The notes beneath the pieces are model-generated. The model saw nothing but the letters and a program-made list of their open reading frames with translations. It ran no database searches and was not told the origin of the DNA. Shown in pieces: positions 12,575 to 38,749 of a DNA stretch of 40,514 nucleotides; positions within the stretch are counted from its first letter, which is position 1, and every line of letters begins with the position of its first letter. This stretch comes from a virus. A program made the translations under genes and the position numbers. Location: IMG/VR virus record IMGVR_UViG_3300025661_000007, positions 1-40,514 of that record. One strand, written 5' to 3'.

Positions 12575-13513
12575 TTAAGCTGTGTGAGTCATCAACATCT
12601 CGGTCAGCCAGTTATCGTTAAGAATCAAAGAACCGTATCCCATTGATTTCCATCCATGAGTTGCAATCTGGCTTAACGGATCAGCTGTTCCAGCAGAACC
12701 GAAATCTTTAAACTCTGTAGATATAGCGCCTTCCATATCAACTGTTACTTGAGCATTCTTTGCCATAACAAATGCACTGTAATAGCCAGTATCAGCATCA
12801 TAATATCCAAGAGATGATAGCATCCAACGAATATAATCAGTGTTACCAAATTCAGCAGGATGTAATCCACTAGAACTTGGGTATTCTGCTTTATTCTTAA
12901 ATCCAGGAATGTCAGCAATATCATCCATCATTGATACAGAAGATAGAGCCCAGAATGTTTCTGGCAATGGAGCTGTTCCGAACTTATTAACACCTTCTTG
13001 CATAGCATTGAAAGGTCTTCCATCATTCTCCATAAGAGTCTTAACAACTTGACGAAGATCTTTACGGCTTAAGTCTGTAGCTACCAATGCACCATACTGG
13101 CAGGTATAACTAGATGCTGTAGCAGCCATGACATCTCGTGTAAGAATATCAAGACTACGACCCATCTGCTCACCTAGAAGCTTAGTGGATTCGTTCAATA
13201 CAGGATCTTCCATTGTATAATCACATTTATCAGTGATCTCAACATAATCTCCGTATTGCTTAAGTCTAACTGTCTTCCTGACATTGGTCAATTTCTGACC
13301 AGCAGGTGGTGTACCTTCAGCTAATGAAACCAAAGCAGGATCAAGTGGTAAGAAACCACCTACTTTAAATTGATCACCAGACCCTTTAGGCATTTTAACT
13401 TTCTTTGAAAATAAATTATGGATCTCAAATGGTTCAGCTCTGTCGATCATTAAACCTGCATAGTGAACACCAACCGCATACTTTAAATCGTCTACTTTTG
13501 TCATATTTGACAT
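12575..13513 (-). CDS. Major capsid protein, N4-gp56 family
   Basis: 312 residues from ATG 13513, which has AGGAG eight bases upstream. A longer frame opens at 13552 but would overlap the scaffold gene and has no SD. The sequence (VHYAGLMIDRAEPFEIHNLF, then KMPKGSGDQFKVG, PAGQKLTNVRKTVRLKQYGDY, ITDKCDYTMEDPVLNE, LGEQMGRSLDILTRDV) is typical of N4-gp56-type HK97-fold capsid proteins. It lies directly after a scaffold gene and before a decoration candidate. It builds the icosahedral head. Confidence 0.9.
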   Translation of the reverse strand: MSNMTKVDDLKYAVGVHYAGLMIDRAEPFEIHNLFSKKVKMPKGSGDQFKVGGFLPLDPALVSLAEGTPPAGQKLTNVRKTVRLKQYGDYVEITDKCDYTMEDPVLNESTKLLGEQMGRSLDILTRDVMAATASSYTCQYGALVATDLSRKDLRQVVKTLMENDGRPFNAMQEGVNKFGTAPLPETFWALSSVSMMDDIADIPGFKNKAEYPSSSGLHPAEFGNTDYIRWMLSSLGYYDADTGYYSAFVMAKNAQVTVDMEGAISTEFKDFGSAGTADPLSQIATHGWKSMGYGSLILNDNWLTEMLMTHTA

Positions 13514-13527
13514 AAGAAATACTCCTG

Positions 13528-14232
13528 TTATCGGCCACCATCTCGTATACACTTATCTGACCATGCTCTCCGTTCATCACGGGTCATGTTCTTTAGCTTA
13601 CTAGCTAGACTAACAGTTCCACCACTACCAGCACTACTGCCAGCACCTGGTTTATTCATATTCTCTGTTGCTCTTCGAGCATTCTCATGGATCTGTTGCT
13701 TACCATGATCTTTGATATATGACTGTCCTTCTTTGCAAGTTTCATAAGCCGCTGCCATGGCATCCACGTCATTTGGGTGCTTGGACAAAAATGTGCGTAA
13801 CTTCAATGGCAATGTTTTGCCGTATTTTTCTAAAGTTTTTTCATAATCAGGTGTAGATGATAAGAATCCAATTAACTGTGTCTTTGCTTCAAGATTGATT
13901 TTTTCATTTTCCATTCTTTTTATAAGAGCATCTTCACGCTCTTTTTGTTCAGCAATAGTTAAGAAATCTGTCCCATCTCTACCATTAAAAGGGTCGTCTT
14001 TAACAACTGGCTTTTCATATAGTTGTGTAAGTCGTTGATTAACTTCCATTAACTGATTTGTTAATGTATCATTTTTACCCTTAAGTTCTTTAATGACACC
14101 CCTCATTCCTCTGAAATCTTCAGCATTAGGATTGGTATCTCTTTGAACATCGCCCGATTGTACAGCGGCATCCTGTGTCACAGCGGCATCCTGTGTGTTG
14201 TCTACGCCCGAATCATTATCTTCAAAACTCAT
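13528..14232 (-). CDS. Scaffolding protein
   Basis: 234 residues, acidic at the start (EDNDSGVDNTQDAAV with a direct repeat of AAVTQDAAV type), a central charged coiled coil (about 45-135: KELKGKNDTLTNQLMEVNQRL), and a basic C-terminus (KLKNMTRDERRAWSDKCIRD) after a Gly/Ser linker. This layout, with a basic C-terminal clamp, is that of phage capsid scaffolding proteins, and it sits directly before the capsid gene with only 14 bases between. Scaffold leaves the procapsid during maturation. Confidence 0.8.
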   Translation of the reverse strand: MSFEDNDSGVDNTQDAAVTQDAAVQSGDVQRDTNPNAEDFRGMRGVIKELKGKNDTLTNQLMEVNQRLTQLYEKPVVKDDPFNGRDGTDFLTIAEQKEREDALIKRMENEKINLEAKTQLIGFLSSTPDYEKTLEKYGKTLPLKLRTFLSKHPNDVDAMAAAYETCKEGQSYIKDHGKQQIHENARRATENMNKPGAGSSAGSGGTVSLASKLKNMTRDERRAWSDKCIRDGGR

Positions 14233-16983: not shown

Positions 16984-18507
16984 TCAACGTCTATAATAGT
17001 TACTGCGATTGATAATATCATCTTTACTAAGAGTGTTTTCATGCATTCCACCGTATTTCTTTAAACCAATCGCCATATATCTAAAACTATCAGCTCCATG
17101 ACCAGCTTTCTGGTGGTCTTTTGGCTTATTACATACCAATCCATCAGCCGTAACATCTTTTCGATAACCATCAAGATTCTTAATCCCAGCAGAACAAGCA
17201 TTTAAATCAAACCAACAATTAGGCAGTAACTCTCTGACAATATCAATACCATCTTCAACAGGAAGTCTATCAAGAACAGTTACACTTAAACCCATCTTCT
17301 CCAAAGTATTCTTACGACTTATACCAGTACTAATATCATGCACTCTAACATCATGAGGTAAATAATGAGCATCAAATATAACTTTATGTTTCTCTTGCCA
17401 TTTCCGTAACCAATGAACATATGTAGATAAGCTCTCATTGTTATTCTCATAATAACCAACAACTCTTATATATATCCCCTGTACTTGCACAATCCATATC
17501 GCAGTAGCATCACTAAAGCCCAAATCCCAGCTTGTAAATGTCGGTAGATCTTTATTAACAGGTACAGTGTTTATCTGGTTATTCTCCCGCAATTCATTCA
17601 AGGCTTTCTGATAATAATAAGCATCACTAGATACCTCTATCGCCTCTTTATATGTAGAAGGATACTCTTGTTGCATCTTATCACCCTGAATACGCTCTTC
17701 TGCCGCATACCACTTCTTCTGGGCATCATTCAAATGTATTCCACTCTCAACAACAAGACTATGAAAATACTCATTTATACGCTCTGATAATGGGTAGTCC
17801 TCAAACAATTGATATTCTGGGTTGTCATACCATGGAAAGAAAAAGAACTTAAAATCTTTAGAAGTTAACTTTCTCCCAGACTCTTGAACATCCAAAGCAT
17901 CATTACACAAATCAGGCATAAGCCCATATCTTCCCTCCATTGTAGACTCAATAAATATCTTCCCCTTCTCTGCTGCTGGTATCGCTCCAGTCTTTACCTC
18001 TTCCGCTTTAGCAGGGAACTGTTGATACATCTTAGCAAGCTCACTTACATGCAATATCTGTAACGTATCAGACCTCACCATCGTATCCGCTGTAATTATA
18101 GAACCATTGTCAAACTCAATAGATGATGTAGTTAATCTTATAGCCTTCGGTACAAATCCAGAATCTTTTAAATATTGTGGTATCTGCTCATATGGAAATC
18201 TTATCTTAGATGCAAATATCTTTAATGCATCACTCTCTCTATGCGCTATTATCGCAGCCTTAAAATTATCATTAAATAAACACTCATCAAGTATTACAAA
18301 TACACATACCCCAGTAGTTATCCCATGTTGTCTTGCCTTTGGTATTACATTACGTGTATGACTCTCTTTAAGCAGCCTTGCTTGAGTTATATTAGGCTTT
18401 ATGACATCTACTTTACCCCACTTGTCTTTGACCTTGTACAGCGACAGTATACGCTTTTCTTTATCTGCTATAAACTCTGCTATTTCTTGTTTGGTTTCAT
18501 CATTCAT
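16984..18507 (-). CDS. terL: Terminase large subunit
   Basis: 507 residues, a normal TerL length. ATPase domain: Walker A-like KARQHGITTG at 57-66, Walker B ILHVSELA at 151-158 and coupling motif ESTMEG at 187-192. RNase H-like nuclease domain: D328 in SWDLG, D386 in LPHD and D473 in GHGADS, the three metal-binding acids. It cuts concatemeric DNA and drives it through the portal. Start ATG follows TGGAGAAGAT. Unusually, 685 non-coding bases separate it from terS. Confidence 0.95.
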   Translation of the reverse strand: MNDETKQEIAEFIADKEKRILSLYKVKDKWGKVDVIKPNITQARLLKESHTRNVIPKARQHGITTGVCVFVILDECLFNDNFKAAIIAHRESDALKIFASKIRFPYEQIPQYLKDSGFVPKAIRLTTSSIEFDNGSIITADTMVRSDTLQILHVSELAKMYQQFPAKAEEVKTGAIPAAEKGKIFIESTMEGRYGLMPDLCNDALDVQESGRKLTSKDFKFFFFPWYDNPEYQLFEDYPLSERINEYFHSLVVESGIHLNDAQKKWYAAEERIQGDKMQQEYPSTYKEAIEVSSDAYYYQKALNELRENNQINTVPVNKDLPTFTSWDLGFSDATAIWIVQVQGIYIRVVGYYENNNESLSTYVHWLRKWQEKHKVIFDAHYLPHDVRVHDISTGISRKNTLEKMGLSVTVLDRLPVEDGIDIVRELLPNCWFDLNACSAGIKNLDGYRKDVTADGLVCNKPKDHQKAGHGADSFRYMAIGLKKYGGMHENTLSKDDIINRSNYYRR

Positions 18508-18830
18508 ATCTTCTCCATATTGTTATAACGCATATTTATTTCTACACTGTTTGCATGTTGAATGTTAGCGTTTTTTTAAAAAAAATAAAAAATAAAATTG
18601 GGAGGAGCCATAATATTATAAAGCATTCTCCCCACAGGGATTCCCATTGGAGAGCTTTTGTAAAAGTCCGTATATATACAAGTCGCAAGCGATAGTCATT
18701 GATGTTGCATTCGTTCCCCCTCCATCTTGTAGCGTCTTTGTTTCTAGCGCCGTTAGTCGCATCGTGTTGCAGTCGCTATATGTCACGCTTGTGTTGAGCG
18801 CTTGCGTGTGTGTTGTCGCAACGTAGCCTA

Positions 18831-18874
18831 TGTGTGTGTGTTGTGTGTGTGTTGTGTGTGTGTTGTGTGTGTAT
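18831..18874. repeat. Four tandem 11-bp GT units
   Basis: Three perfect copies of TGTGTGTGTGT and a fourth ending in A/T lie head to tail, so the TT step recurs every 11 bases, close to one helical turn. The tract continues as alternating TA to about 18885. Such DNA can be bent or left-handed and could be a phased protein-binding array, or simply slippage-prone sequence. Confidence 0.8.
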
Positions 18875-19048
18875 GTATATATATAGTGTTGTGTTTAGTG
18901 TCCTTCAATGTGTAATTGCCCCTGCTTTTAGTGTGTTGAGTGTCAAGAATCTGAGCTTTGAAAATAAATTTATCGTCGTTTTATCACTGTAGATATATAG
19001 ACAATAGAACACTGCACTTTTACACGCAATAAGCACTTATCTTTACTA

Positions 19049-19076
19049 TTGACAACAATTCTCTAAAACATATAAT
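19049..19076 (+). promoter_or_regulatory. Consensus sigma70-type promoter, rightward
   Basis: TTGACA (19049-19054), 16 bases, TATAAT (19071-19076): both hexamers are perfect. Transcription would start near 19083 and run rightward, antisense to terS, toward the operon of small genes that begins at 20086. It is the strongest promoter match I found in the window. No other good promoter was found before 20086. Confidence 0.65.
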
Positions 19077-19173
19077 CAAAGATTATGTGAAACATACGCA
19101 CTTAGCGTGTGAGCATAATTCTAGACTTGAGCTCAATAACGAAAGTCGCTTAAATCACATAACCAAAGATTAT
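19072..19173. promoter_or_regulatory. Two operator-like palindromes at the rightward promoter
   Basis: ATAATCAAAGATTAT at 19072-19086 is a perfect inverted repeat (six-base arms, three-base centre) overlapping the -10 box and start point. A copy with one mismatch lies at 19159-19173. The pair, 87 bases apart, would suit repression by a dimeric helix-turn-helix protein, perhaps with looping. Candidate binders encoded here are the double-HTH protein at 21880 and the Cro-like protein at 30438. Confidence 0.5.
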
Positions 19174-19192
19174 ATAAAAACAAATGCTAGTC

Positions 19193-19843
19193 TTAAGCTT
19201 TCTCAAGCTTCTTCTTTTTAGCTAGCCGTTTCTTAGCATCCTCAACAAATTGCTTAGACTCATCTAAAGCCTGTTTTTGCTTATTAATGTCCGCAGTGTC
19301 GCTAACTTTCTTTCGCTCATCTTTATAACTTGTAAAGCTCTGATTTTTATCTTGATTATCACGATCTTGAAAGCCGTGGCAAAATTGAAATACGCTTGCG
19401 TTATAAGTACCTCTAGAGGCTCCTTCTTCACGACGGGTTCTTAATCGTTCCCTAACAATTGCCATTGCTGAAGCAAAATTTACATCTTTTTCAGCAATCT
19501 TATACATTGTAGAGCGTGTGTAAGGAGGTTCACGATATAGCCCGAACTTTTCCATCACTAAATTATTTTCATAATCCGACCACTTCAAAAAATCATCAGC
19601 TTCTTTTTTGCAGCGCTCAGGTGTCCATTCAAGAGGTCTACATGCGTTTTTTGCGTCGGCTTGATCTCTTATATCTCTAGCTTTTGATTTAATAGATACT
19701 GTTAACTCTCTAGCATAACATTTAACACACAGTCCCCGCCCGCGGTGCTTTCTTTTAATAGTCCCGCAATTTACGCAACAATCGTGTTTTAGCGCCCATT
19801 TTACAGGCTTTTTGATCTTAACTTTAGCTTTAATCTTACTCAT
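19193..19843 (-). CDS. terS: Terminase small subunit candidate with N-terminal zinc ribbon
   Basis: 216 residues from ATG 19843, preceded by GAGG; the frame extends four codons upstream to a GTG lying within the SD. A basic tail is followed by a zinc ribbon C22/C23-x-C26 ... C39-x2-C42. The middle (about 70-160: WTPERCKKEADDFLKWS, RSTMYKIAEKDVNFASAMA) resembles helical DNA-binding domains of phage small terminases, and the C-terminus is a Lys-rich coiled coil. It is the gene before terL. It would recognise the packaging site and load TerL. The zinc ribbon is an uncommon addition. Confidence 0.7.
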   Translation of the reverse strand: MSKIKAKVKIKKPVKWALKHDCCVNCGTIKRKHRGRGLCVKCYARELTVSIKSKARDIRDQADAKNACRPLEWTPERCKKEADDFLKWSDYENNLVMEKFGLYREPPYTRSTMYKIAEKDVNFASAMAIVRERLRTRREEGASRGTYNASVFQFCHGFQDRDNQDKNQSFTSYKDERKKVSDTADINKQKQALDESKQFVEDAKKRLAKKKKLEKA

Positions 19844-22909: not shown

Positions 22910-22938
22910 GGGGCGTAGCATACGTTACGCCTCTTTTT
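22910..22938 (+). terminator. Terminator of the rightward small-gene operon
   Basis: GGGGCGTA (22910-22917) pairs with TACGCCTC (22926-22933), with one G-U pair, and TTTTT follows at 22934-22938. The T-run on the other strand is absent. It ends the rightward operon exactly where the convergent rusA gene ends (stop codon 22939-22941). Confidence 0.8.
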
Positions 22939-23430
22939 CTATTCCTCTGCTTTCCACTGCTCATAAACGCTTGACAACCACTTTTTAATTGCGTGATAAC
23001 AATACTTAAGCTTTTCATTCATACCGTACCTCAATATTATTTCTGTTCTTGGGTTTTCATCATATATTCTTAGACCTTCTATACGCCATATTTGGTTGTC
23101 ATCGTGATATACTAGACCGTTCATTACGTCAAGTGGCATCTTAATAAGATTGTCTATATCAGGCTTTTTAGAGTGTCGTGAGTCATCTTCTATTATAGCT
23201 TTTTTCTTCTTCTTTGATAGCGACTTTGGTATCGGCATATAAAACACAATTTTCATTTCTATCGGAGATGTTATTATATCATCAACCCACTGTTCAGAGA
23301 TTATTTTTGCTATCTCTTTTTTAATCTTACAAGATGGGTCATAGACTTTAACAAAGCTACCAATGTTAGCGAATCTAGGCCGTGGTTGACCCTTCGGTAT
23401 TCCGTCAATCGTGATAGTTTTTATGGGCAT
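22939..23430 (-). CDS. rusA: RusA-family Holliday junction resolvase
   Basis: 163 residues. GIPKGQPRPRF at 10-20 and KPDIDNLIK at 89-97 are RusA hallmarks. Acidic metal ligands are D91, D93 and the D110/D111 pair, spaced like D70, D72 and D91 of E. coli RusA. It cuts four-way junctions and resolves recombination intermediates and branched replicating DNA before packaging. It ends the leftward operon and overlaps the next gene upstream by one base. It fits functionally with the annealase and nuclease at 30.8-33.6 kb. Confidence 0.9.
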   Translation of the reverse strand: MPIKTITIDGIPKGQPRPRFANIGSFVKVYDPSCKIKKEIAKIISEQWVDDIITSPIEMKIVFYMPIPKSLSKKKKKAIIEDDSRHSKKPDIDNLIKMPLDVMNGLVYHDDNQIWRIEGLRIYDENPRTEIILRYGMNEKLKYCYHAIKKWLSSVYEQWKAEE

Positions 23431-25904: not shown

Positions 25905-26102
25905 TTATATCATTAGATATGGTTTTCTACGCATAATACGTTTATTTTCATTTATATTTAATAGGTATGCTTTCTTTTCTTCAAATGTATTAAACCATTT
26001 ATCGCTTAATGTTAGATTGCATTTTGAACATGATATTTGATACGTCTGACATCTTCCATAACCAATAAGTTTTATATTCGGTATATAAAAATATTTTTCC
26101 AT
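25905..26102 (-). CDS. Small Cys-containing protein, 65 aa
   Basis: 65 residues with C18, C25 and C28 (GRCQTYQISCSKCNL) and basic ends (ENKRIMRRKPYLMI). Three cysteines with CxxC suggest a partial zinc ribbon. SD is GGGAGG. No function assigned. Confidence 0.6.
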   Translation of the reverse strand: MEKYFYIPNIKLIGYGRCQTYQISCSKCNLTLSDKWFNTFEEKKAYLLNINENKRIMRRKPYLMI

Positions 26103-26112
26103 AAACCCTCCC

Positions 26113-26182
26113 GGGGGTATCCCAATTGAAAAGTAAGGGAAGCCAGCTGGGTAACTGGTTTTCGGTCTCGAGCCTATCCCCT
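26113..26182 (+). other. tRNA-like cloverleaf fold, degenerate
   Basis: A seven-pair outer stem GGGGGTA (26113-26119) with TATCCCC (26175-26181, one G-U) encloses TCCC/GGGA (26120-26123, 26137-26140) and GCCAG/CTGGT (26142-26146, 26155-26159). The last carries an eight-base loop CTGGGTAA. The T-arm position is too short, with only GGT/GCC around CTCGA and no TTCRA loop. It therefore looks like a tRNA remnant or mimic, not a working tRNA. It lies on the strand opposite to its neighbouring genes, between two small zinc-binding proteins. Confidence 0.3.
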
Positions 26183-26310
26183 AAAAGTGTTAGAATTGTT
26201 TTAAGGCTATTCTAATGGCCTATAATATTCAAAACAACCGTGACATCAAAATAACCACGTTAACGGCTACAGGGTGTGTTTCTGTTCGTTCTAGGGCTAT
26301 TTGCCAGTCT

Positions 26311-26514
26311 TTATTGTTTGACGATTACGGAATCTAGCTGTAAACAGTCATTATTCATGCAAAACCAAACTAAGCGGGTATCTCCTTCAGGTTTGTTGAC
26401 TTCAAATACCCTGCCCTTGTTACCACCGCAACGCTTACAACGTATAAGATTCTCATCTGTTGGTTCAGGGAAAAATCTGAACCTTCCTTCAAATATTCTG
26501 CCGTGTACAATCAT
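26311..26514 (-). CDS. Small zinc-ribbon protein, 67 aa
   Basis: 67 residues with C26-x2-C29 (RCKRCGG) and C52-x4-C57 (FCMNNDC), a four-cysteine ribbon. Its ATG lies immediately after the stop of the replication initiator (TAAATG), so both are made together. A role beside the initiator, such as DNA or helicase contact, is likely by context but unproven. Confidence 0.65.
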   Translation of the reverse strand: MIVHGRIFEGRFRFFPEPTDENLIRCKRCGGNKGRVFEVNKPEGDTRLVWFCMNNDCLQLDSVIVKQ

Positions 26515-27552
26515 TTAATCTATCCCCTGCCCGAATGATATGCCGTATCTCTTAAGCATTTGATTAAACTTATCTTCGAACTGATAATCATCCCATTTCA
26601 CCTGATAAAAATTCATACCACGATTAAAAGAACAGGCTGTTTCACTAGAGCTATACTCTGCTGAATTGTATACCTCTCCGTGTTTGAAGTTAGACTTAAC
26701 TTTATCTTTGAAAGTTTCTCTGAATGACTTTCTTGTTCCAGTTGATGCCATACAGTTTGTTGAGGTATCCCATAGCCACGAGTGCTTGCTGAATACTGAA
26801 AATGTGTACGGTTTCTTACGCTTAACAACGCCTTCGGCAATGCTTATATGCTGTAAGTTTAACTTATCGTACATAATCTCTAACATTTCAGGTGAATATT
26901 TACTCTCTAGGCTATCAATCTGTTCTTGGGTTAGGTGTATCTCATCTCTGACTGGAATTGTATCTTCCCTTTCTTCATTGACAAATTTTGGAATAGTTTT
27001 TGAGGCTTTAGACGATTTTTCTTTGTATATACCTTTAGGTATATCTTTCTTATTTAGGTTATTCTTATTTAGGTTATTCTTATTTAGGTTATTCTTTGGT
27101 TCATGTGGTGAATAGGGGGGTTCATGTGGTGAATAGGGGGGTTCATGTGGTGAATAGGGGGGTTCATGTGGTGAATAGGTATTCTTTTTTTTATTCTTAT
27201 TGAAAAGCTCATGATTTTCATCCCAAATGTCTGTTATAAAAATATGATCAACGCCATTACCCCCACTTTCGTGTACTACACTTTCTATTCTTATTAATGA
27301 TTTTCCTTCTAATTCTTTTCTAGGTTCACATAGCTTTCTTTTAGTACTAGATACTGTTCCTATAGACATGCCAGACTCTAGCGCTAATCTTTTTGTCCCC
27401 TTCTTGCACAATCCTTTTTGACCTGCTGTTCTCTTAATAGCCATATATAGAGCTATCTCATACGCTGTTAATCCTAATTCAAATATGATGTTTGTTGTTT
27501 GTGTGAAATATTTGTGCGAACTGCATTCATCTGTGAATTGATTTTCGGTCAT
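26515..27552 (-). CDS. Replication initiator-like protein with N-terminal winged helix
   Basis: 345 residues. Residues about 22-110 form a winged helix-turn-helix (LTAYEIALYMAIKRTAGQKG, RLALESGMSIGTVSSTKRKL), the pattern of DnaD/lambda O-like phage replication proteins. A repeat linker follows: four copies of YSPHEPP (125-152) and three of NNLNK (153-168). The C-terminal half (about 205-345) is a DnaD-like or helicase-loader-contacting region by inference. The DNA coding for the linker has the form of a replication origin. With no helicase or polymerase in the window, it would recruit host enzymes. Start ATG follows GGAGACGAAATT. Confidence 0.7.
   Translation of the reverse strand: MTENQFTDECSSHKYFTQTTNIIFELGLTAYEIALYMAIKRTAGQKGLCKKGTKRLALESGMSIGTVSSTKRKLCEPRKELEGKSLIRIESVVHESGGNGVDHIFITDIWDENHELFNKNKKKNTYSPHEPPYSPHEPPYSPHEPPYSPHEPKNNLNKNNLNKNNLNKKDIPKGIYKEKSSKASKTIPKFVNEEREDTIPVRDEIHLTQEQIDSLESKYSPEMLEIMYDKLNLQHISIAEGVVKRKKPYTFSVFSKHSWLWDTSTNCMASTGTRKSFRETFKDKVKSNFKHGEVYNSAEYSSSETACSFNRGMNFYQVKWDDYQFEDKFNQMLKRYGISFGQGID
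27047..27182. other. Candidate replication origin: 15-bp AT repeats beside 21-bp iterons, inside the initiator gene
   Basis: Three perfect copies of TTCTTATTTAGGTTA (27047-27061, 27062-27076, 27077-27091) lie seven bases from four copies of a 21-bp unit beginning GTTCATGTGGTG (27099, 27120, 27141, 27162). The first three 21-bp units are perfect and the fourth differs at its end. An initiator-bound iteron array next to an easily melted AT array, inside the initiator's own gene, is the plan of the lambda origin in gene O. Recent coding-repeat expansion is the alternative. Confidence 0.55.
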
Positions 27553-27588
27553 AATTTCGTCTCCAATATTAAAAGAATGATTGTATAT

Positions 27589-27708
27589 TGTGAGAAATCA
27601 ACGAAGTGTGCTATGCTAGACACGTTTTCAACTTGAAATTAGTTGAAACTAAGACTTTTATACATTTTAAGAGTATGTTATATTAGTCTTATTCGTTGGT
27701 TTCTCGCA
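27589..27708 (+). ncRNA. Cloverleaf-like structured RNA, probable rightward transcript
   Basis: A 17-pair outer stem joins 27589-27605 to 27692-27708. It closes three hairpins with almost no bases between them: GTGT+CTA / TAG+ACAC (27606-27623), TTTCAAC/GTTGAAA (27626-27648) and AAGACT/AGTCTT (27651-27690) with an inner ATAC/GTAT. The outer stem has two U-G pairs when read as plus-strand RNA; on the minus strand these become A-C mismatches. A terminator hairpin with a T-run follows on the same strand. The RNA would be antisense to the leader of the initiator mRNA. I found no convincing rightward promoter. Confidence 0.5.
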
Positions 27709-27710
27709 TT

Positions 27711-27757
27711 ATAGGTAACCTGAGCTCGACACTCTGTAGGGTTGCCTATTGCTTTTT
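27711..27757 (+). terminator. Terminator-like hairpin after the cloverleaf RNA
   Basis: ATAGGTAACC (27711-27720) pairs with GGTTGCCTAT (27740-27749) over ten base pairs, including one U-G pair valid only in plus-strand RNA. TGCTTTTT follows, and the loop is 19 bases. It would end a rightward transcript from the cloverleaf. Confidence 0.5.
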
Positions 27758-27878
27758 AGATTTTCATCTAAATATCTTGCCAAACTTTCCACATTGTATC
27801 GCAAGACATCATTATTATTAAGAATTATTATTATTATATTTGACGTGTAAATACAGCTTTACAGGTGTTTATACAGAT

Positions 27879-27907
27879 ATATTAACGGTGTATAAGTGAT
27901 GTGTAAA
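27879..27907 (-). promoter_or_regulatory. Candidate leftward promoter for the initiator gene, overlapping GTGTAAA repeats
   Basis: On the minus strand TTTACA (27907-27902), 17 bases, TAATAT (27884-27879). The -35 box is the complement of a GTGTAAA repeat. The next repeat to the left (27845-27851) also supplies TTTACA with ATAATT 17 bases on, so two promoters may lie in tandem. A transcript from here would carry a leader of about 320 bases before the initiator start codon. Confidence 0.4.
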
Positions 27908-27964
27908 GCAGCTTTTCATTTAGTTTGTGGTTATCAAAACCACGTTTCAGTATTCACAAAGAAG

Positions 27965-27990
27965 TTTGTATATATTTGAGTATATACAAA
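27965..27990. promoter_or_regulatory. Perfect ten-base inverted repeat, operator-like
   Basis: TTTGTATATA (27965-27974), six bases, TATATACAAA (27981-27990). It lies upstream of the leftward promoter candidate and could be a regulator site or an RNA hairpin. No T-run follows on either strand. Confidence 0.45.
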
Positions 27991-28134
27991 ACGGCACTTT
28001 TGACGATTTTATACCGCAAAAAACGGCATTTCGTGTGCATGACAACAACAACATACACACAAAACTGGCTTTTCTTGTGTACGTCAATATAGATCTAATT
28101 CAGCTCATAAGCTCTTCTTCTATCATGGGTTCTC

Positions 28135-28389
28135 CTAATGTTTAAAAATATTATAAGAATGTTTTGTTTGGAAGTCATCGGTCATATTAACTAAATCGCC
28201 AATCATCATAACTAGTTCAGTAAAGCTTTCTTTAAGCTCATCAAAGTCTTTAGACTGTGAAAGAACCTTCTTCATGTCAAAATATACATTCTTGTAGTTA
28301 TCCTGCAAAAAGTTCTTCCTTCCTTCCTTAAGTCTAGCTTCTCTTCTTAGTATAGAAAGCTCTTCCTCTATTGATACATATTCTTCCAT
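28135..28389 (-). CDS. Small coiled-coil protein, 84 aa
   Basis: 84 residues, helical and charged (VSIEEELSILRREARLKEGR, then LSQSKDFDELKESF). SD is AGGAG before ATG 28389, which overlaps the stop of the gene upstream. No family recognised. Last gene before the non-coding control region. Confidence 0.6.
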   Translation of the reverse strand: MEEYVSIEEELSILRREARLKEGRKNFLQDNYKNVYFDMKKVLSQSKDFDELKESFTELVMMIGDLVNMTDDFQTKHSYNIFKH

Positions 28390-29500: not shown

Positions 29501-29796
29501 CTTAACTCCTCATGGTCATCTAAATAATACGGTGTAGCGAAAAACCCAATCGTTTTGCCGTCTATTTTACCATCATCCGACCAGTGAGGTCTTATCGTAT
29601 ATGATATTTCAGGGAATAATATATCTATTTCGCCGTCAAAGTCCTCTAAAATCTTGTACTGTTCCTCACGATAATATTGTAGTAACAAACATTTAGCTTC
29701 GTTTTCTACATCTTTTGGAAGATGCCTATTAGTATCTGGCATTAATAAAGAACATGATATTTGATATTTTTCTAGTTCTATAATTTCTTCATTCAT
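29497..29796 (-). CDS. Hypothetical acidic protein, 99 aa
   Basis: 99 residues, acidic, alpha/beta, with an aromatic C-terminal half (IGFFATPYYLDDHEELR). Its start overlaps the end of the sigma region 4 gene, so it may serve in the same step. No family recognised. Confidence 0.55.
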   Translation of the reverse strand: MNEEIIELEKYQISCSLLMPDTNRHLPKDVENEAKCLLLQYYREEQYKILEDFDGEIDILFPEISYTIRPHWSDDGKIDGKTIGFFATPYYLDDHEELR

Positions 29797-30445
29797 CTAA
29801 TTCCATCCAAAATTTATCGAAACATTTGCAACATAATGCCTCGTATTGATTAATTCTAATTCTATAATCCGCTTTCCAAGATTGGCAATTACATTTCCCG
29901 ATAAATGTACGGCTTGGCAATGAGTTATCCATCATTTTGCATACATAGCTAAATTGAGTATCCCACCACGACATTAGCGCAGGACTGGGGTGTCTAGCTA
30001 CTAGATCACGCTGATTAAAACTGACTTCTTGCGGTGGTGCTTTTCTTTTCTCAACAATAACTTCTTCTTCTTCTTCTTCTTCTTCTTTTGGCTTTTCTCT
30101 GCCGTCAAGCTCATAAAATACCTCTGCTAAAAGAGGATGCCTAAGCTTTCTAAGTCCTTTTGCTTCTATCTGCCTTACCCTTTCTCTTGTAATACCATAC
30201 ATTTCTCCTACTTCTTGCAGCGTACTTGATATTCCATCTTTTATACCAAATCTGGCTATTAATACGCCTTCCTGTCGTTCCGACAAATTAGATATAATAT
30301 CCAGAATACGTTCTTTTATAAATATTTTATCTACATCATCTCTTACATCTATATCAGATTGCTTGTTGTGAAAATAGTCATTATATAAGACGGAACATTC
30401 TGGAAACTCTGGTATTTCTCTCTCTCCACTGAACTTATTAGCCAT
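29789..30445 (-). CDS. Sigma-70 region 4 protein with C-terminal cysteine cluster
   Basis: 218 residues. Residues 45-104 are a canonical RpoD region 4: LSERQEGVLIARFGI (54-68), TLQEVGEMYGITRERV (75-90), then RQIEAKGLRKLRHP (91-104), the helix that reads -35 boxes. Regions 1 to 3 are absent. A run of eight Glu (121-128) links to a domain with C185, C187, C205, C206 and C208, probably metal-binding. A lone region 4 could compete with host sigma for the beta flap, act as an appropriator, or pair with another factor to read late promoters. It overlaps the Cro-like gene by eight bases. Confidence 0.85.
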   Translation of the reverse strand: MANKFSGEREIPEFPECSVLYNDYFHNKQSDIDVRDDVDKIFIKERILDIISNLSERQEGVLIARFGIKDGISSTLQEVGEMYGITRERVRQIEAKGLRKLRHPLLAEVFYELDGREKPKEEEEEEEEVIVEKRKAPPQEVSFNQRDLVARHPSPALMSWWDTQFSYVCKMMDNSLPSRTFIGKCNCQSWKADYRIRINQYEALCCKCFDKFWMELDE

Positions 30446-38182: not shown

Positions 38183-38749
38183 CTAGCTATAAATATAATT
38201 TAAAACTTCTTTTTTATAGAACTTCCCGCCAGTTGTATATGCTCCATAAGTAGAACTATCTATATTGGTAGTTGAACTTGATGCCTTTTGTAATGAAACT
38301 GTATCAGCTGTTAATTTTGTTACATGGTAAACATTAGAACCGTAACCATCAGAATTAAGTTCTACCATACCACCAGTAGCCATAGAATCAATCTCTATAA
38401 AATCACCTGTAGAAAGAGTATGACCTACACTTGTAAGAACACAAGGGCTTGCCTTAGTAGCACCTGTTATAGCTACACCTGTAGCAATAGACGCTGATTC
38501 CCATATATGAGAATAATCATTTATCCCATTTGCTATTCTAGTTTTTACAGGATTGCTTGCGCTATCATATGTATAAAAAATAATCTTCCAACGAGGTTCA
38601 CTGTCTAGCGAGCCTGGTACTGCATATCCAATAATAACAATATTATCAGTGCCAAACTTAGATACATTCATTATGTCATCTGTAGATGTATGCGGAATAA
38701 TAGAGCCATTATTATCTGTATGCTGTGTTGGCCTTCTATGTATTGTCAT
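38183..38749 (-). CDS. Fibre-cluster protein with E1-FCCH-like module
   Basis: 188 residues. The second half (about 95-180: TGATKASPCVLTSVGHTL, YGSNVYHVTKLTADTVSLQK, SSTYGAYTTGGKFYKK) is homologous in pattern to the module in the head protein at 11924-12556. The N-terminal half contains IIGYAVPGSLDSEPRWKI. Start ATG follows AGGGGG. Probably an accessory fibre or tail subunit; shared modules suggest intragenomic exchange. Confidence 0.6.
   Translation of the reverse strand: MTIHRRPTQHTDNNGSIIPHTSTDDIMNVSKFGTDNIVIIGYAVPGSLDSEPRWKIIFYTYDSASNPVKTRIANGINDYSHIWESASIATGVAITGATKASPCVLTSVGHTLSTGDFIEIDSMATGGMVELNSDGYGSNVYHVTKLTADTVSLQKASSSTTNIDSSTYGAYTTGGKFYKKEVLNYIYS

Follow-up and report, generated by a model that had tools for sequence, protein, structure and literature searches.

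Several plasmids place an antisense RNA opposite the leader of their replication initiator mRNA, and R1 CopA and pT181 RNAI, both built from hairpins and a terminator, are examples. ColE1 RNA I is also a terminated antisense RNA with three hairpins, which acts on a primer RNA and not on an initiator mRNA; to our knowledge, it has no long closing stem. In phage lambda, OOP RNA is mostly viewed as a regulator of the lysogeny gene cII, and its role in replication is unsettled. OOP is transcribed from pO, a promoter with a −10 element that overlaps the O start codon, and it has its own terminator (PMC5869508, PMC3985674). The published 5′ end of OOP maps to base 38,675; the −10 element lies 8–13 nt to its right (PMC5869508) and is therefore located over the O start codon. 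OOP was reported to act on the cII mRNA and to leave the stability of the O–P mRNA unaltered, and pO affects replication via convergent transcription, or cross talk with pR, in which the oop RNA seemingly has little role (PMC3985674). An antisense RNA opposite an initiator mRNA leader has also been described for pMV158 (RNAII; PMC4485353), and in Bacillus subtilis one overlaps the 5′ UTR of dnaA (PMC12112137).

The locus described here lies in the virus record IMGVR_UViG_3300025661_000007, which was analyzed over its whole length of 40,514 bases (the window). Its ends overlap, with sequence common to the first and last gene fragments, and contig L001 crosses the end junction almost identically; the genome is therefore probably circular and complete. 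The phage encodes a P22-type portal. The gap at 27553–28135 has on one side a leftward gene set (small genes and those for a PNKP-type phosphatase and a sigma region 4 protein) and on the other the leftward gene 26515–27552 (Table 1). The latter is probably the replication initiator, on the basis of weak profile matches and iterons. Its N terminus gave weak matches only, to phrog_270 (replication initiation protein, E = 0.0014) and HTH_36 (E = 0.011), and the gene contains four 21-bp direct-repeat iterons (27098–27179) and three 15-bp AT-rich repeats (27047–27096). The leftward terminator in the gap suggests a separate mRNA start for the initiator, which would make the cloverleaf region described below its leader. 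Beside this region, a second hairpin-rich stretch (27840–28095, minus strand) folds more strongly leftward than rightward (z = −4.5 versus −2.0); it is closed by a stem (TTGACGT/ACGTCAA), has perfect dyads, e.g., TTTGTATATA...TATATACAAA, and contains the leftward terminator. Elsewhere in the window, the long gap before TerL (18507–19193) has CA-rich repeats and a structured stretch at about 19000–19192 (z about −3.3), and the long gap at 26095–26330, considered as a structured region, was not special (z = −0.18 and 0.65).

Table 1. Positions of the predicted elements at the initiator locus of the window
Feature	Position	Strand	Remarks
Probable replication initiator	26515–27552	−	345 aa, winged-helix-like N terminus
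Probable origin inside the initiator gene	27047–27179		Iterons and AT-rich repeats
Candidate pO-like −10, CATAAT	27550–27555	+	Overlaps the initiator start codon; by analogy with lambda pO (PMC5869508)
Outer stem, 5′ arm	27589–27605	+	17 contiguous pairs with 27692–27708
Hairpin 1	27606–27623	+	Predicted fold
Hairpin 2	27626–27648	+	Predicted fold, 8 perfect pairs
Hairpin 3	27650–27691	+	Predicted fold
Outer stem, 3′ arm	27692–27708	+	Pairs with 27589–27605
Intrinsic terminator	27711–27757	+	Hairpin 27711–27749, then T-run 27753–27757
Region with the two candidate promoters of the initiator mRNA	27824–27907	−	Consensus matches only
Candidate leftward promoter 1	27851–27824	−	TTTACA-16-AATAAT
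Candidate leftward promoter 2	27907–27879	−	TTTACA-17-TAATAT
Leftward intrinsic terminator	28018–28069	−	Stem −16.4 kcal/mol, T6; separates the initiator from the leftward genes upstream of it

The stretch 27589–27757 (plus strand) is antisense to the probable initiator gene and located 37 nt upstream of it. Its minimum free energy (MFE) is −59.4 kcal/mol (z = −7.42), and none of 200 shuffled sequences folded as well. The predicted fold agrees with the preliminary description, which had claimed an outer stem of 17 pairs around three hairpins, with a four-way junction, and the RNA's own terminator after it. In the predicted 195-nt RNA, the pair probability is >0.97 for most outer-stem pairs, the exceptions being the first three pairs and the innermost pair (0.54–0.73). 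The minus strand of the same stretch folds less well (MFE −46.6, z = −6.17). By MFE, four G–U pairs form in the rightward RNA (27591–27706, 27598–27699, 27716–27744, and 27721–27739) versus one in the leftward RNA; if G–U pairs are disallowed, the two strands hardly differ (−46.7 for rightward versus −44.0 for leftward), and the bias toward the rightward RNA is suggestive, not decisive. Two rightward-only U–G pairs had been claimed for the outer stem and one for the terminator stem; the former number stands, and the terminator contains two. The T-run follows in the rightward direction, as had been described, and the reverse strand has none.

Between 22470 and 30775, no rightward gene of a recognized family or syntenic place was found; the few rightward ORFs there are short or overlap leftward genes, and another rightward terminator occurs earlier, at 22932. 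For these reasons, the terminator hairpin ending at 27749 is taken to serve a local RNA. The end of the upstream leftward gene (28135) is 378 nt past this terminator, and the ORF list contains no gene of at least 60 aa beneath the antisense RNA. The lack of a clear rightward promoter had been named as the main weakness, and it persists: the best antisense score for a sigma-70 promoter was no better than those of shuffled sequences (p = 0.24). The candidate CATAAT is preceded by a poor −35 element (TTCATC, 18-nt spacer) and would start the RNA at about 27562. The product of the gene at 29789–30445 (minus strand) contains sigma-70 region 4 (Pfam, E = 6e-16), and the promoters of this phage protein might include the missing antisense promoter.

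The closest counterpart is lambda OOP. As a positive control, the terminator scan used here recovered lambda tO 80 nt upstream of O, and folding of the 77-nt OOP gave one stem domain and a terminator hairpin. The element in the window resembles OOP in being antisense and directly upstream of the initiator gene (its T-run is 196 nt from the start codon) and in having its own intrinsic terminator, and its initiator gene carries iterons internally, like lambda gene O. The candidate −10 is placed over the start codon as in pO, with a promoter score no better than shuffles. The preliminary description regarded such control as new to phages, which was too strong, since lambda OOP has the same arrangement (PMC5869508, PMC3985674). 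The element differs from OOP in its predicted size (about 165–195 nt versus 77 nt) and fold (a four-way junction versus one stem), in the absence of a clear −35 element, and in that no cII-like gene lies beneath it and no cII 3′ end is overlapped. A distant blastn search against the phage collection gave no lambdoid match to indicate similarity to OOP.

Like R1 CopA, pT181 RNAI, and pMV158 RNAII, the predicted RNA of the window lies opposite an initiator leader and combines hairpins with a terminator; unlike them, it belongs to a phage genome, and no plasmid relative was found. There is no sense-strand attenuator of the pT181 type between the cloverleaf and the initiator gene, and no tap-like leader peptide was recognized. 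It shares a terminator and three hairpins with ColE1 RNA I and differs from it by the long closing stem and by opposing an initiator mRNA. The antisense RNA of B. subtilis likewise overlaps the 5′ UTR of a replication initiator, dnaA, which is a chromosomal gene (PMC12112137).

Searches of viral contigs, genome contigs, phages, and plasmids found homologues of neither the initiator nor the cloverleaf element, and the neighboring proteins gave one PNKP relative (33%). The related contigs L002 and L003 do not extend across 27.5–28.1 kb. A 15-base stem pattern gave 120 chance matches; the exact partner arm was found in the window itself only, and one other match had a near partner arm (three mismatches) and gave no hint of the element. 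At gathering scores, no covariance model of Rfam 15 matched the window, and for 27450–27900 none did at E values up to 10; the tRNA search was empty.

We also searched for the architecture itself, defined as a stem of at least 11 bp enclosing at least two branches and followed by a terminator, in the window together with about 90 relatives (2.49 million strand-bases). As a class, it is not enriched: nine cases were found in the real DNA versus 9, 11, and 3 in three shuffles, and a looser scan was also at chance (29 real versus 33 shuffled); in both scans, the shuffles preserved trinucleotide blocks rather than dinucleotide counts. The distinctive features of the cloverleaf are its stem length, its clean single-hairpin terminator, and its position. 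A clean single-hairpin terminator directly after the stem was found in two matches only, that of the window and L019:11611–11522 of phage G005, whose TerL is 45% identical to that of the window. The G005 element has a 12-bp stem with two hairpins inside (versus three in the window) and then the terminator. It is antisense and upstream of the initiator, and its T-run is 197 nt from the start codon versus 196 nt in the window. The G005 initiator is well recognized (phrog_4707, E = 4e-20), and a DnaB-like helicase gene comes after it; it has no detectable similarity to the initiator of the window. Position and architecture thus recur in G005 without sequence similarity. In the same phage, a multibranch domain with an 11-bp perfect closing stem (CTCTATAGAC type) at L019:11142–11490 adjoins the antisense element and is placed like the second domain beside the cloverleaf of the window. 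Another strongly structured gap of G005, L020:5922–6118 (z = −5.8 and −4.2 on the two strands), is located between TerL and the gene matching 12575–13552 of the window.

Antisense terminators were then counted upstream of 19 initiators from distant relatives, in addition to that of the window. Among AT-rich gaps of at least 100 nt, one was found upstream of 6 of 80 genes in a background set that may include duplicate contigs; these six rows are five initiator rows from four phages and one non-initiator. In the final tally, to which G007 was added and in which G022, G046, and four cultured phages (gaps of 97–176 nt upstream of the initiator) are the negatives, an antisense terminator precedes 5 of 11 initiators versus 1 of 75 other genes (AT-rich phages, gap of about 100 nt or more; Fisher p = 7e-5). 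Because the idea originated from the window, p values were also calculated without it (5e-4) and with one more positive left out (3e-3). Some of the terminators are weak (−8.3 kcal/mol in G009), and in the cultured phages, most of which have no gap at all, an antisense terminator was found in the gap in 0 of 12. The feature therefore recurs at initiators and is not universal. The gap upstream of the G009 initiator (L024:17556–17865) has many separate hairpins on the sense strand (z = −6.4) and no closing stem. In G019 and G021, where the gaps are short, a strong antisense promoter (TTGACG-17-CATAAT) lies over the initiator start, with its −10 placed as in lambda pO, and points at an antisense terminator 37–52 nt upstream of the initiator. 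The predicted RNA would be roughly 40–60 nt long and cover the ribosome site. The terminator stems of the two phages are one compensatory pair apart (GGGCAG/CTGCCC versus GGGTAG/CTACCC).

Here, we propose that the element is an enlarged OOP-like cis-antisense RNA that lowers initiator expression and brakes replication, a reading that we consider probable, with some reserve. From the computed structure, strand bias, terminator, antisense position, and positional recurrence in relatives, we infer transcription of the RNA, its start, its pairing with the leader, and its effect on replication as follows. A short RNA, probably of about 165–195 nt, would start rightward from a promoter located on or close to the initiator start codon, fold into a stable four-way junction, and end at 27757 through its own terminator. 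Leftward transcription of the initiator mRNA would begin near 27.82–27.89 kb, and the leader of this mRNA would carry the mirror-image sequence, enabling the two RNAs to pair across the whole overlap. This pairing, or the collision of converging polymerases, may reduce initiator synthesis, and replication would be braked as the number of templates rises. If cis base pairing is the mode of action, the initiator mRNA would be the sole local target because only the initiator leader lies beneath the RNA. The preliminary description had proposed both an antisense position with an own terminator and control of the initiator mRNA; the former is borne out in the window and is echoed in G005 and at other initiators, and the latter is what we infer from it. 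We therefore regard the element as a probable check on the initiation of phage DNA replication and not as an entirely novel type of system.

Other explanations fit part of these observations. The act of transcription might suffice, with rightward polymerases colliding with the leftward ones bound for the initiator and origin and with the RNA and its fold as by-products. This mode has been proposed for lambda pO, with cross talk with pR and little role of the oop RNA (PMC3985674), and it would agree with the recurrence of antisense terminators whose RNA folds are quite different. We regard it as rather unlikely for the window, since a 17-bp stem with three hairpins is far more elaborate than interference needs, and a comparable fold occurs in G005. 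Less likely still is that the leftward initiator leader is the functional molecule, its mirror cloverleaf acting in cis to protect the mRNA or control translation, perhaps with a protein or metabolite. The minus strand folds well too (z = −6.2), and the neighboring stretch 27840–28095 prefers this strand, whereas the G–U pairs (4 to 1) and the T-run indicate the plus strand. Moreover, the ribosome site of the leader is predicted to be only partly paired (about 0.4–0.7), and no leftward terminator was found between the cloverleaf and the gene (27757 to 27552). A cruciform or hairpin site in the DNA next to the origin that serves the initiator or a RusA-like resolvase would suit the origin repeats in the adjacent gene, the RusA-like resolvase encoded at 22939–23430, and the folding of the DNA strand (z = −6.7); it leaves the T-run, the G–U bias, and the antisense terminators of relatives unexplained and seems very improbable. 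That the structure is a product of chance or decay without conserved function, with a terminator that blocks stray antisense transcription, would account for the absence of homologues and for the loose architecture being no more common than in shuffles, and is hardly credible given the z score of −7.4, the contiguous 17-bp stem, and the matching position in G005.

Beyond the single locus, we tentatively consider a broader possibility, which at present is doubtful: that antisense RNAs of the OOP type, which share no sequence relationship and are elaborately folded in some phages, form a recurring class that acts on initiator mRNAs and limits replication in non-lambdoid phages. Such a class, if true, would amount to copy-number control of the plasmid type inside a phage. 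Phages distant from lambda whose initiator is accompanied by a terminated antisense unit, with no cII-like gene beneath the unit, would indicate the initiator and origin as a target and make the old question of the role of OOP in replication testable. Genomes can be searched by a simple rule, namely for intrinsic terminators that lie upstream of a phage initiator in antisense orientation.
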